The notes under the pieces are model-generated. The model had not been told where the DNA came from, made no database searches, and saw nothing but the letters and a program-made list of their open reading frames with translations. This document shows, in pieces, positions 27,817 to 36,997 of a DNA stretch of 37,374 nucleotides. Source of the stretch: Roseovarius sp. GTDB taxonomy: Bacteria; Pseudomonadota; Alphaproteobacteria; Rhodobacterales; Rhodobacteraceae. Made by a program: the position numbers and the translations under genes. The stretch's first letter is position 1. The number at the start of each line of letters is the position of its first letter. The stretch lies in assembly GCA_026709325.1 (NCBI GenBank), contig JAPOTF010000025.1, positions 1 through 37,374 on the forward strand. The letters run 5' to 3'.

Positions 27817-32084
<4,268 letters not shown>

Positions 32085-32209
32085 CGGTCTGCGTCAGCTT
32101 GCAAGACATCAATGCGCAGACTAGAATTTTATCGTGATTGCGGTGTAAGGCTGTTTTTTATGGCGGTCACTCCTGGCTTTGTATTTCGAGGATAACGGTT
32201 CGCGAGTGG

Positions 32210-35200
32210 ATGAATATTGGTGAAACGAGTGGGATAATGACTGGGGATGGCTTCGAATCGGCTTCTGAAGGGTCGCTTCTGGATAGAATCGCGATATTTC
32301 CGGTCGCTCCCGATGAAGGGCGCGGAAAGCTGTTTCTCAATGATTTGCTGGAAGATGTGAAAGTTGGAGAAAGTCTTAAAGCCCTGATTTGCCGAAAACC
32401 GGAAATTGAAGGCTTTTTGACTGGGATAATGTGTAACACTTCATATTTGCGCGATCTCATGCGCGCGGATCCCGGTCGTCTCGTTGACATCTTAAACGAC
32501 AATCCTGAAAGCAGAATTGACCGTATTGTTAAAGCCACCATTGATTATCAGGCGGCAGGCGAAGCCGATCTCATGATTGATCTACGCAAGGCCAAGCAGG
32601 ACATGGCGCTTACGATTGGTCTTGGTGATATAGGTGGAGCGCTGGATCTGAACAAGGTTACGTGCGCTTTAACCGCATTTGCGGACGCCTCGCTGACCGC
32701 AACCATTAGATATGCATTGGGAGAGCTTGCCAAAAGGGGAAAATTTAATCCCCATGATGCCAACGCCCCTGAAATTGACAGCGGCCTGATAGTGCTTGCC
32801 ATGGGGAAGCATGGCGCATACGAGCTAAACTATTCGTCCGATATTGATTTGATTATACTTTTTGATCGCGAAAAAGCTCCCATTCCGGATTCCGTGGAGC
32901 CGCAGACGCAGTTTGTCCGTCTTGTTCGAAGACTTGTCAAAATCATGCAGGAACGCACGGCGGATGGCTACGTTTTTAGAACGGACCTTCGTCTCCGTCC
33001 GGATATAGGTTCCAATCCATTGGCAATGCCGTCGGATCTGGCTGTCAATTACTACAAGACGCAGGCGCTTACATGGGAGAGAACCGCGCTGATTAAGGCG
33101 AGAGCCTGCGCGGGAGATATCGCTGCCGGAGAGATGTTCCTTCACAATGTGGTGCCGTCGATTTGGTCCATGAATTTGTCTTTTGCCTCCATAGCGGATG
33201 TGCAGGACATAAAGCGTAAAATTCACATGCACAAGGGACATTCCGATATCGCCGTTGCCGGTCACAATGTGAAACTTGGCCGAGGCGGCATACGCGAAAT
33301 TGAATTTCTGGTGCAAACCAGACAGATAGTCGCAGGTGGGCGCAATCCCTCTTTGAGGGGTCGCCGGACACTCGATATGCTGAACAGGCTATGTGAAACG
33401 GGATGGGTTCGCGAAGATGCCCGGGACGAGCTGTCCGAGGCCTATGGGTATTTGCGAAATGTTGAACATCGCATCCAAATGCTCAACGACGAGCAAACCC
33501 AGCTTTTGCCCAAAAGCCAGGATGGTCTGGACCAGGTGGCATATCTCATGGGTTGCCCTGATTTCAGATCTTTTGAGGAGGCGATTCTTGAGAGATTTAA
33601 TTGCGTTAAGCGCCATTACGAGGAGATGTTTGAAGACGAATCGGTTTTTTCCCCGGAACGGGACAGGCTGAATTTTTCTGGTGATGGCTATGATGCCGAC
33701 ACAGTTAAAAAACTTGGAAAACTTGGGTACGGGAATCCCGAAACCGTAATTGACACTGTCAGAAACTGGCAGGCCGGAACCTACCGGAGCACAAGATCCG
33801 AAAATGCCCGCGAGCGACTTGAGGAATTAAATCCGGTTCTTTTTTCGGCACTTGCGGCAACCGACAATGCGGATGACGCCTTGAGCAGATTCGACGCCAT
33901 TTTGTCGAAAATGCCGCGTGGCGTTCAATTCTTCGCCTTGCTGCGTTCAAATCCGCAAATTATGAATTTGCTGGCCACCACAATGGGCAGCGCGCCCAGG
34001 TTTGCGGAAATTGTCGCTCAAAGGCCGCAAGTGCTGGACTCGCTTCTCGATCCCTCCTTTTTGGGCGTCATGCCAAGCGTGCAGGATTACAACGAGTTTC
34101 TCGACAGAATGCTTGCCGATGCCCGTACTTATGAGCAGGTTCTAAATCAGGTGCGGTTTTTTGCCCAGGAGCAGCAGTTTCTCATAGGTATCCGTGTTCT
34201 TGCAAACACGCTCAAGGAGAACAGGGCGGGTCTTGCGCTTTCACGTCTTGTAGACGTGATCGTCGAGCGTCTGCTGCGTCATGTGTTTGAGAATTTCACC
34301 CGCAAATATGGAAACATTCCCGGGGGAAGCATCGCCATATTGGCCGTTGGCAAACTTGGCGGGCAGGAGATGACGGTTTCCACAAATCTTCAATTTGTTC
34401 TGGTATATGAATTGCCGAAAGATGAAGCCGTTTCAGACGGGACCGAAAAACTCAAGGCAAGTGTCTACTATCGGCGTTTGGCACTGAGATTTATCGCTGC
34501 GGTTTCGGCGCCAACATCTGAAGGGGCGCTATATCCGGCGGGTATAAATCCTCTGTCATTTGGCTATGCGGGGCCACTTGTAACAAGGCTCGACAGATTT
34601 GCCGCCTACCAGAACGAGCGGGCGTCAACTTTGGAGCTAATGGATTTGACTCGAATGCGCGTCATTGCGTCTAGTTCAAGAGAATTTGCGTTTTCGGTTT
34701 TTGACCGTATTGGCGAATGTCTTAAAAAACCCAGAGACAAGATAAAACTGGCCAGTGAATTTCGTTTGAATAGAAAGAACATTGAAAGGGAAAAGAGTAC
34801 AAAGGATTTATGGAACTTGCGTTTTGTATCCGGGGGCGTCGTTGATATTGAGCATATTGCCCAGTATTTGCAAATTTGCCATGCGCATGAAACCACTGTG
34901 GGCATGGCAAAGGGTACCGAGCAGGCACTGGAGTTTCTTAACGAGCTTGGGCTTCTGGAGACGGCCGACTTTGAGATCCTAATTGATGCATTCAGACTTT
35001 ATCAAAGACTTGAGCATGTTTTGTGTCTGGCATTTTCAGAGAAGACCATTCGGGAATCCCCCGCCGCCGCGATTTATGCGGAAGTGGTTCGCGTGACTCT
35101 TTCAGATGAAACGGCTACCGCTGATTCTCCACTGGGGATAATTGATTTGCTTGTTCAGGTCTCCGGTTTCCCCTCGTTCGACAAACTGGAATATTCTCTG

Positions 35201-35266
35201 GCAGAATATCAGCGCAAAACCCGTGAAATATTTCTGCGAATTATCGGGGATATCGAGATTGACTGA
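32210..35266 (+). CDS. glnE: GlnE-like protein with degenerate adenylyltransferase domain
   Basis: GlnE adenylylates glutamine synthetase (C-terminal domain) and removes AMP again (N-terminal domain). From ATG 32210 this is 1018 residues, close to the family length; ATG 32237 is an alternative. The N-terminal site is intact: ELNYSSDIDLI with Asp211 and Asp213, and RTDLRLRPD with Asp259. In the C-terminal half the frame AVGKLGGQEM is kept, but the ASDLD motif reads STNLQ (Asn726, Gln728), and the DMRLRPSG motif reads GINPLSFG (Gly778). Thus all three metal-binding aspartates are gone, with no stop or frameshift. Predicted: deadenylylation possible, adenylylation lost. Neighbours are unrelated. 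Confidence 0.92.
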   Translation: MNIGETSGIMTGDGFESASEGSLLDRIAIFPVAPDEGRGKLFLNDLLEDVKVGESLKALICRKPEIEGFLTGIMCNTSYLRDLMRADPGRLVDILNDNPESRIDRIVKATIDYQAAGEADLMIDLRKAKQDMALTIGLGDIGGALDLNKVTCALTAFADASLTATIRYALGELAKRGKFNPHDANAPEIDSGLIVLAMGKHGAYELNYSSDIDLIILFDREKAPIPDSVEPQTQFVRLVRRLVKIMQERTADGYVFRTDLRLRPDIGSNPLAMPSDLAVNYYKTQALTWERTALIKARACAGDIAAGEMFLHNVVPSIWSMNLSFASIADVQDIKRKIHMHKGHSDIAVAGHNVKLGRGGIREIEFLVQTRQIVAGGRNPSLRGRRTLDMLNRLCETGWVREDARDELSEAYGYLRNVEHRIQMLNDEQTQLLPKSQDGLDQVAYLMGCPDFRSFEEAILERFNCVKRHYEEMFEDESVFSPERDRLNFSGDGYDADTVKKLGKLGYGNPETVIDTVRNWQAGTYRSTRSENARERLEELNPVLFSALAATDNADDALSRFDAILSKMPRGVQFFALLRSNPQIMNLLATTMGSAPRFAEIVAQRPQVLDSLLDPSFLGVMPSVQDYNEFLDRMLADARTYEQVLNQVRFFAQEQQFLIGIRVLANTLKENRAGLALSRLVDVIVERLLRHVFENFTRKYGNIPGGSIAILAVGKLGGQEMTVSTNLQFVLVYELPKDEAVSDGTEKLKASVYYRRLALRFIAAVSAPTSEGALYPAGINPLSFGYAGPLVTRLDRFAAYQNERASTLELMDLTRMRVIASSSREFAFSVFDRIGECLKKPRDKIKLASEFRLNRKNIEREKSTKDLWNLRFVSGGVVDIEHIAQYLQICHAHETTVGMAKGTEQALEFLNELGLLETADFEILIDAFRLYQRLEHVLCLAFSEKTIRESPAAAIYAEVVRVTLSDETATADSPLGIIDLLVQVSGFPSFDKLEYSLAEYQRKTREIFLRIIGDIEID

Positions 35267-35425: not shown

Positions 35426-36997
35426 TTAATCACGATTGCCCGTCGTTTCGGCGCGAACGTCCAGCAGTTTTCGATCCTCGCGTCCACAGACCATCGCGAT
35501 CAAATGAACAGGCTTTTCACGGTTGATATATTTTTCGGCATAGCCCCGATCCCGCATCTGGGCGAGTGCCGCCTCCAGGGCGGCTTCGACATCTTTAGCC
35601 TTTTCCACCATCTTGAACTCCAGTACAAACACCTGCCCACCCGTAAGTACAACCATGTCGGCACGGCCGTGACTTGAAGCTTCCTCCGAGCGCACATCCA
35701 CGTCGATCGCACGGAAGCACATATGCAGCAGACCGGCATACCACGCCTCATGGCGAGCGAGGCCGTTGTTGTTCCACTGATAAGGTATACTGGCCAAATA
35801 GGCGCGAAACTCTTGGGCAAAGCTCTCAAAGTCATGTGTCTCAAGACAAGTCTGGAGTGATCTGGCCTCCTCCAGCGGAACATGGTCCCGCGTATTCAGG
35901 TTCGCCAGCAACGCATCATTTAGACTGAGTTTGACCTCCCGATTGGGATAGTCCAGCCGGTATAAAATCCTGTGGCCCTGCCGATCTTCGCCAGTGATCG
36001 TCAAATAACCCGTCTGAAACAGCAAGGCCTCGGCACTGATATCATCTACATCGAATTTTGAGACTAGCGACCTGTCGGCCATCCGATTCTCCAGTTCCCT
36101 CAAGCTGACGGACTTCTTCTTCAGTGTTTCGAAGAGGAAGGTCGGTGAACCTGTCTCAAACCAGTATGGGCAGAACTCCCGGTCATTGAACAGCAAGAGC
36201 ACATCAAAGGGATTGTAGAGCCGCTCTTCCCCACGCCAGTTGTAGCCATTATACCATGTGCGGATCATGTCGCGGTCTAATCCGTCAAGCTCAGGCGCAA
36301 AAACGGTATCGATATCGACGTCCGTATACCCGCAAATCGCAGCAAAATGCGGATCCAGGCTGATATCCTTCAGGTTATTGAGATCCGAGAACAAGCTTAC
36401 CTTGGAGAACATGCTCACACCGGTGACAAAAACAAAGCGGACATGCTCGGCACTACCCTTAATGATTCCATAGAAACTCCGTAGACACTCCCGGTTGGCC
36501 CGTGCCAGGTTAGTGTCGTGTAGTCCGTCAAGGATGGGCTTGTCATACTCATCCACGAGAATCACAACCCGCTGGCCTGTCTTGCGGTGAAGGCGGTTCA
36601 ACACATCGAACAGGTACTCCGGTGCCGTTTTCCATGTTGACGATGAAAGCTTGGCGTCGCGCTCAATTGCTTTTAATTGAGCGAGAATGTTGCGCTCAAT
36701 ATCCGCTGGTCCGTCATACTTCCTGTTAAAGCTCAACCGCACCACCGGATGGGTGACTGACCAGTCCCAGTGTTCACAGATCGCCAGACCCCCGAACAGT
36801 TCCTTGCGTCCCTCAAACACGGCCTTAATCGTATCCACCAGCAGACTCTTGCCGAAGCGACGCGGGCGGGAAAGGAACCAATGATCGCCCCGCTTGATCA
36901 GATCCCAAATCATCGCGGTTTTATCAACGTAATAGCACTTCGTTTCACGCAGTCGGGCGAAATCCTGAATGCCGATGGGCAGACGTTGACGGCTCAT
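35426..36997 (-). CDS. AAA-ATPase-like / PD-(D/E)XK nuclease protein
   Basis: A 523-residue protein with two known parts: an N-terminal AAA-ATPase-like domain (PF09820 type), with the degenerate P-loop RPRRFGKSLL at residues 44-53 and Walker B ILVDEYDKPIL near 145, and a C-terminal PD-(D/E)XK-superfamily nuclease domain (PDDEXK_9 type) with GRADMVVL and FVLEFKM, where the Asp, Glu and Lys form the likely active site. AGGAGGAAG precedes ATG 36997. The family is widespread, often multi-copy, with unproven function; roles in mobile-element or defence biology are guesses. Codon use looks different from the glnE side, suggesting transfer. Confidence 0.85.
   Translation of the reverse strand: MSRQRLPIGIQDFARLRETKCYYVDKTAMIWDLIKRGDHWFLSRPRRFGKSLLVDTIKAVFEGRKELFGGLAICEHWDWSVTHPVVRLSFNRKYDGPADIERNILAQLKAIERDAKLSSSTWKTAPEYLFDVLNRLHRKTGQRVVILVDEYDKPILDGLHDTNLARANRECLRSFYGIIKGSAEHVRFVFVTGVSMFSKVSLFSDLNNLKDISLDPHFAAICGYTDVDIDTVFAPELDGLDRDMIRTWYNGYNWRGEERLYNPFDVLLLFNDREFCPYWFETGSPTFLFETLKKKSVSLRELENRMADRSLVSKFDVDDISAEALLFQTGYLTITGEDRQGHRILYRLDYPNREVKLSLNDALLANLNTRDHVPLEEARSLQTCLETHDFESFAQEFRAYLASIPYQWNNNGLARHEAWYAGLLHMCFRAIDVDVRSEEASSHGRADMVVLTGGQVFVLEFKMVEKAKDVEAALEAALAQMRDRGYAEKYINREKPVHLIAMVCGREDRKLLDVRAETTGNRD

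Follow-up and report, generated by a model that had tools for sequence, protein, structure and literature searches.

The adenylylation cycle of glutamine synthetase (GS) is a textbook bicyclic cascade. Opposing activities of this sort can be separated, as in RelA/SpoT, where the two opposing activities of a bifunctional Rel were divided between two copies and a pseudo-domain was retained. For the GS cycle, passages of two published accounts (PMC12409994, PMC6490700) describe a single enzyme, GlnE, that performs both opposing reactions: the C-terminal half adenylylates GS, the N-terminal half removes the AMP by phosphorolysis, and PII or PII-UMP chooses the direction. Unidirectional adenylyl transferases (uAT) have been engineered from GlnE in Azorhizobium and Azospirillum, which passages of PMC9249168 present as laboratory truncations that keep the adenylylating (AT) half and drop the deadenylylating (AR) half. 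Among the matches listed in a search of the open-access literature, with subscription journals mostly outside its reach, no natural one-way GlnE and no genome with two glnE genes was recognised by title or abstract.

The protein described here is encoded in the window, the whole stretch of 37,374 nucleotides of Roseovarius sp. contig JAPOTF010000025.1 that was analysed. Like known GlnE (NF010706; PDB 1v4a and 3k7d), it consists of two homologous nucleotidyltransferase halves and a central region, but it lacks all three AT aspartates and its genome also carries an intact glnE. Unlike uAT, it is natural, full length and has kept the AR half. The likeness to RelA/SpoT lies in the division of opposing activities and the kept pseudo-domain; it differs in that the chemistry is unrelated, the window copy was probably acquired and not duplicated, and the GlnE split recurs several times.

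Loss of the AT triad from a full-length GlnE homologue

The features of the window discussed below are as follows.

27823 to 29997, forward strand: ligA, adjoining recG (Pfam)
29970 to 32084, forward strand: recG of the host-family type, directly upstream of glnE (identity comparison)
32210 to 35266, forward strand: second-copy glnE, 1018 codons from ATG 32210, in an open reading frame open from TTG 32138
32420 to 33145, forward strand: N-terminal GlnE domain (AR, deadenylylating), retained; PF03710, 178.4 bits, 8/91 AR invariants changed
32840 to 32848, forward strand: AR catalytic D-x-D, Asp204 and Asp206, intact (alignment)
32984 to 32986, forward strand: third AR aspartate, Asp252, intact (alignment)
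33632 to 34000, forward strand: central regulatory region (residues 468-590) with moderate change, 3/12 invariants; borders drawn by us from the domain matches
33968 to 34681, forward strand: C-terminal GlnE domain (AT, adenylylating), catalytic residues gone; PF03710, 130.6 bits, 18/50 AT invariants changed
34379 to 34393, forward strand: AT D-x-D replaced by STNLQ (Asn719, Gln721; alignment and DNA)
34541 to 34543, forward strand: third AT aspartate replaced by Gly771 (alignment and DNA)
35024 to 35089, forward strand: insertion of 22 residues (932-953) in the C-terminal helical domain, shared by the window protein and its relative P0002

The reading frame is uninterrupted across 32138-35266, which bears out the intact frame of 1018 codons reported in the initial annotation, and the alignment with P0002 begins at ATG 32210, the likely start codon. 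Residues are numbered here from 32231, seven below the earlier numbering. The protein contains PF03710 twice and PF08335 twice, each GlnE domain being followed by a GlnD_UR_UTase domain (Pfam), scores 1101.7 bits against the NCBIfam model of the bifunctional GlnE equivalog (NF010706, cut-off 724), and aligns with both solved GlnE halves, PDB 1v4a and 3k7d.

At the AR positions 204/206/252 the window protein reads D/D/D, within the motifs SSDIDLI and RTDLRLRPD, so the N-terminal aspartates previously described as kept (Asp211, Asp213 and Asp259 in the earlier numbering) are all in place. At the AT positions 719/721/771 it reads N/Q/G, within STNLQFV and LYPAGINPLSFG; both the alignment and the DNA, in which a single reading frame passes through both AT motifs, agree with the original observation that all three aspartates (726, 728 and 778) had been lost. 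The family motif quoted with that observation needs correction, since LYEVDFRLRPSG, not LYEVDMRLRPSG, is what most of the close relatives carry, but the loss itself stands. Both sites carry D/D/D in 236/236 reference proteins (P0003-P0120 and P0123-P0240, not sorted by genome copy number) and in 68/68 GlnE of single-copy genomes. Across the near-invariant columns of the family, the window protein deviates at 8 of 91 in the AR half, 18 of 50 in the AT half and 3 of 12 in the central region, and the difference between the first two counts argues that the AT loss is the product of neither chance nor misalignment.

The AT loss is common to P0001 (a 99% identical cluster of 11 members) and P0002 (84% identical), and an assembly error, considered as its cause, was ruled out by these relatives with the same loss. 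The AT triad of P0002 is N/Q/H, and part of its second AT motif reads STHIKPLSFG where the window has PAGINPLSFG, so that the AT site has gone on changing since the loss; 4 of the 11 AT positions compared between the two proteins differ. Also changed in both species are R773, L774, R775, P776, S777, W799 and W801. No further degenerate relative was found in a search of genome contigs. The window protein thus has the AR triad, the domains and the equivalog score of a bifunctional GlnE and lacks the C-terminal AT triad; judged by its sequence, it is a GlnE homologue that is not classed as bifunctional.

The 22-residue insertion is absent from all 236 reference proteins and all 68 single-copy GlnE (304/304), and its presence in the window protein and P0002 is possibly tied to the AT loss.

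An intact second GlnE in the same genome

A PF03710 search located a second GlnE of 937 codons on contig C163 of the same assembly (G000:C163), with both triads intact and with 2/91 AR and 1/50 AT invariants changed. The genes for GS control whose presence had been proposed as a check were also found: one PII gene adjoins glnA, a second PII gene adjoins an AmtB-like gene, and a GlnD-like protein is encoded (we assigned the names AmtB and GlnD from the sequences). The motif NLYDLP, which we take to be the adenylylation tyrosine site, is present in GlnA and absent from the other four GS-like ORFs. Because the C163 GlnE is intact, adenylylation of GS presumably remains possible, and the idea that the organism has lost it, raised initially as GS no longer being switched off by AMP, is unsupported. 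The genome instead suggests the alternative given at the time, that another enzyme adenylylates GS.

Neighbourhood and origin of the window glnE

The glnE ORF opens at a TTG separated from the end of recG by 53 bases. Compared with full-length genes, the window recG shares 54-64% identity with recG from its own family and 34-53% with recG from other families (a partial same-family recG, in G033, is 45% identical), and this closeness to the same-family genes indicates that the contig belongs to the host family. A glnE beside recG was present in none of 29 relatives, with roughly 1.5 kb examined on each side. The named nearest intact relatives of the window copy are Roseibium GlnE (~53-55%), and those of C163 are mostly Roseovarius GlnE (about 57-59%); the labels Stappiaceae-type and Roseobacter-type used here are our own and follow the names of the nearest relatives. 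In an AR-domain tree, a quick tree with SH-aLRT support only, the window protein and P0002 fall within Stappiaceae-type proteins (starred sets of 5 and 9 rows), and C163 groups with the protein P0122 (99) within Roseobacter types (unstarred 84-92 inside a starred 26-row set). Considering these relatives, the tree placement and a recG context that lacks glnE elsewhere, the window glnE was likely acquired rather than native. There is no compositional sign of recent transfer in its GC content, 49.5% vs 51% in the neighbours.

Facing glnE, a gene at 35426-36997 on the reverse strand encodes a predicted AAA-ATPase with a C-terminal PD-(D/E)XK domain (PF09820 and PF08011). Its third-position GC is 62.6% vs about 50-52% in ligA, recG and glnE, and it may be a later arrival.

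Domain-wise divergence between sister proteins

The window protein and P0002 are 88.9% identical in the AR and 81.7% identical in the AT nucleotidyltransferase half. Among 56 reference pairs with an AR identity within 0.02 of theirs, drawn from every second reference, AT identity has a mean of 91.7% and a minimum of 87.5%, and the window-P0002 value falls below all of them. P0122 and C163 are 82% identical overall, with 87.6% in the AT and 76.8% in the AR half; in 7 reference pairs with comparable AT identity, AR identity averages 89.5% and is at least 85.8%, above this last value in every pair. P0122 reads GYVFQPNLCLRPD and GRGGIQEIEF, its third AR aspartate is replaced by Asn, and 13/91 AR and 1/50 AT invariants are changed. 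Across the protein clusters P0002 and P0122 the native copy shows a decay (AR) that mirrors that of the window copy. The C163 copy of the window species retains its AR site, so that the split is not reciprocal in this genome. The matching distances of the two sister proteins (84% and 82%) suggest that P0002 and P0122 derive from one sister species.

Recurrence in genomes with two GlnE copies

With an AR query, a second GlnE ORF was found in 6 of 394 family genomes and, in a class sample, in 7 further genomes of 386 (six listed genomes are in both samples). These are 13 two-copy genomes, 12 of them readable; G597 was excluded for an unreadable AT site, its copy G597b being an open frame of 720 aa near a contig end and without an AT site in the alignment. 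One copy combines an altered AT triad with an intact AR triad in 7/12 readable two-copy genomes, a pattern seen in 0/68 single-copy genomes (Fisher p 2.5e-7, in a non-random sample with a control that we picked from the listed rows). Left out of the control were L037 (truncated at 643 aa), L020 and L040 (from genomes with two copies), L047 (the window's own) and L132 (a duplicate of G040).

The seven altered AT triads read NQG in the window genome (G000), EDD in G014a, REE in G043b, GEE in G126a, ADD in G218a, CDH in G466b and PDD in G653a. The G466b triad lies beside a deletion and depends on the alignment, and G014a, with nothing more than an Asp-to-Glu change, may still be active; leaving it out gives 6/12. 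The partner copy has an intact AT triad in each of the seven (C163 in G000, and the partners in G014, G043, G126, G218, G466 and G653), a test that covers those seven genomes. Both copies keep both triads in G029, G256 and G476 (3/12). In G652 and G722, which are of one genus, the AT triad is kept and 11-12 of 49 AT invariants are lost in one copy; for this second copy w is 0.16 and 0.17, with AR and AT equally constrained (Nei-Gojobori), and its AT sites may be active. The loci L103, L104, L107 and L108 of these two genomes possibly represent a transitional stage or an AT site whose specificity has changed.

G653 contains an AT-lost, AR-intact copy together with an AR-altered, AT-intact copy (E/D/D, 16/91 AR invariants changed) and, on the reading of these sites, is a reciprocal pair in one assembly. 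The AR-altered copy, L106 (G653:C84), is a candidate natural writer-only enzyme.

The AT-lost copy is of the host-family type in G218 and G014 and foreign-looking in G000 and G126, and the AR-domain tree has AT losses in several places, with G043b, G653a and the G652a/G722a pair together at weak support. The mixture of types and the scattered positions argue that AT loss does not just befall foreign copies. Where one site was lost alone or first, it was AT in 7 cases and AR in 0 (sign test 0.016), an excess that is partly ascertained because an AR query would miss copies from which AR had gone entirely. It should be noted that a number of the two-copy genomes come from bins that are fragmented or impure (7% contamination in G043, 870 contigs in G126, 87% completeness in G256), and their second copies could be foreign contigs.

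A frameshift behind the altered sites elsewhere was rejected, as tblastn with intact GlnE at six loci gave no second-frame match; this check is weak for G466b, where the AT half is unmatched in any frame past query residue 721. Several apparent two-copy genomes were also set aside. Two other double-match genomes in a phylum sample (397 genomes) had one ORF matching twice, G421, G502, G553, G724, G734 and G753 had two matches within one ORF, and G758 had two adjacent overlapping matches on one contig.

An AT-lost lineage around G653a

All 120 nearest relatives of G653a (120/120) keep AR D/D/D, and 51/120 have an altered AT triad (14 of the 51 being Asp to Glu only), counts which are not natural frequencies since the seed is itself AT-lost and AR-intact. 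The 31 nearest clusters (P0241-P0271, about 70% identity or more by alignment) are all AT-altered and AR-intact, and the first AT position is non-acidic (P, A or T) in every one. With our own script and Nei-Gojobori counts, dN/dS was obtained for the pairs G652/G722 and L149/L150; between L149, taken as the G653a gene, and L150 it is 0.22 for AR and 0.31 and 0.56 for the AT halves. The gene of this lineage is under purifying selection that is weaker in AT. Among 80 named loci, 74 have an ORF (6 have none under the motif filter), of which 71 are intact and 3 AT-altered (L149, L150 and L151). The features proposed to define a one-way class, AR intact, AT lost and conservation between species, are present in the window protein, P0001, P0002 and 31/31 clusters.

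One further locus, L184 (NZ_VCCH02000076.1), is titled Mycobacterium sp. KBS0706 and has an alphaproteobacterial-type GlnE. Its match covers the same query span as that of Inquilinus limosus L188, and the record is possibly misnamed.

Explanations for the AT loss

The window GlnE probably acts as a one-way AMP eraser on GS, to which the intact GlnE on the other contig would add the AMP. A one-way deadenylylase was among the roles first envisaged and is the best supported, and the generally dead pseudoenzyme envisaged beside it is disfavoured by the strong conservation of the AR half. A gene that is redundant beside an intact GlnE might also be a decaying pseudogene, its frame not yet broken, both halves going and no function left, and the AR and central invariants that have changed (8/91 and 3/12) would fit such a fate. 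This is unlikely, however, with a frame that is open in the window and a P0002 that is 16% apart and still 978 residues long, with an AR half that is 89% identical between the two and unchanged in its catalytic residues, and with AT-broken relatives elsewhere that have dN/dS < 1 and include one lineage of 31 clusters with AR intact throughout. Similarly doubtful is a regulatory role in which PII, glutamine or GS is bound by a dead AT half that controls or competes with the intact GlnE, AR catalysis being secondary. A C-terminal domain that is full length though without known catalytic residues, 89% identity between the two species over the last part (residues 901-1000) and an insertion shared by both and missing from the intact GlnE would all be in keeping with it, but interspecies conservation peaks around the AR active site (91-92% at residues 201-400) and the family-wide invariants are kept far better in AR than in AT.

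Catalytic residues can migrate in some enzymes, and this is the support for an AT site that works with other residues and leaves the window protein bifunctional. Such a rescue is extremely improbable, given that seven further residues of the AT site are changed in both species along with the three aspartates, and that more than a third of the positions compared between them differ. Hardly more credible is a bin of two mixed organisms, in which the window genome would have the AT-less GlnE only. The assembly consists of 196 contigs and the window copy is foreign-looking, but contamination is 0.26%, the window glnE shares its contig with the host-family recG that precedes it, and the sister proteins of both copies stand at matching distances.

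As a one-way deadenylylase, the window protein would trace back to a Roseibium-type glnE that a Roseobacter-like lineage gained beside recG, with the redundant AT site lost before the split of two species whose GlnE are ~84% identical. The AR domain would phosphorolyse GlnA-Tyr-AMP, yielding ADP, under control by PII-UMP and 2-oxoglutarate as in known GlnE, and the C-terminal pseudo-domain, full length and in frame, would probably serve as a scaffold or sensor. With C163 as the writer, GS control would persist and be biased towards the active form. That AT goes first may reflect a second AMP writer probably being costlier than a second eraser: in passages of PMC9249168, a writer-only GlnE is reported to be metabolically detrimental when strongly expressed. 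An added eraser, by contrast, ought to be tolerated.

Implications for GS control

Slightly more likely than not is a broader proposal, that Alphaproteobacteria have repeatedly split the bifunctional GS switch after gaining a second glnE. One copy would become an AMP eraser (AR only), in some lineages the other would drift towards an AMP writer, and the cycle would run on two separately expressed one-way enzymes. Annotation would mask the AT loss, as the window protein scores above the threshold of a model that carries "bifunctional" in its name. The window GlnE would be a natural mirror of the writer-only alleles that, in passages of PMC9249168, were built for ammonia excretion, and an eraser-only GlnE could serve where GS should stay active. 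If true, separate genes could set the two rates of the cycle where an eraser-only GlnE occurs naturally alongside a writer, and such an enzyme would provide ready material for asking why both activities are normally fused.
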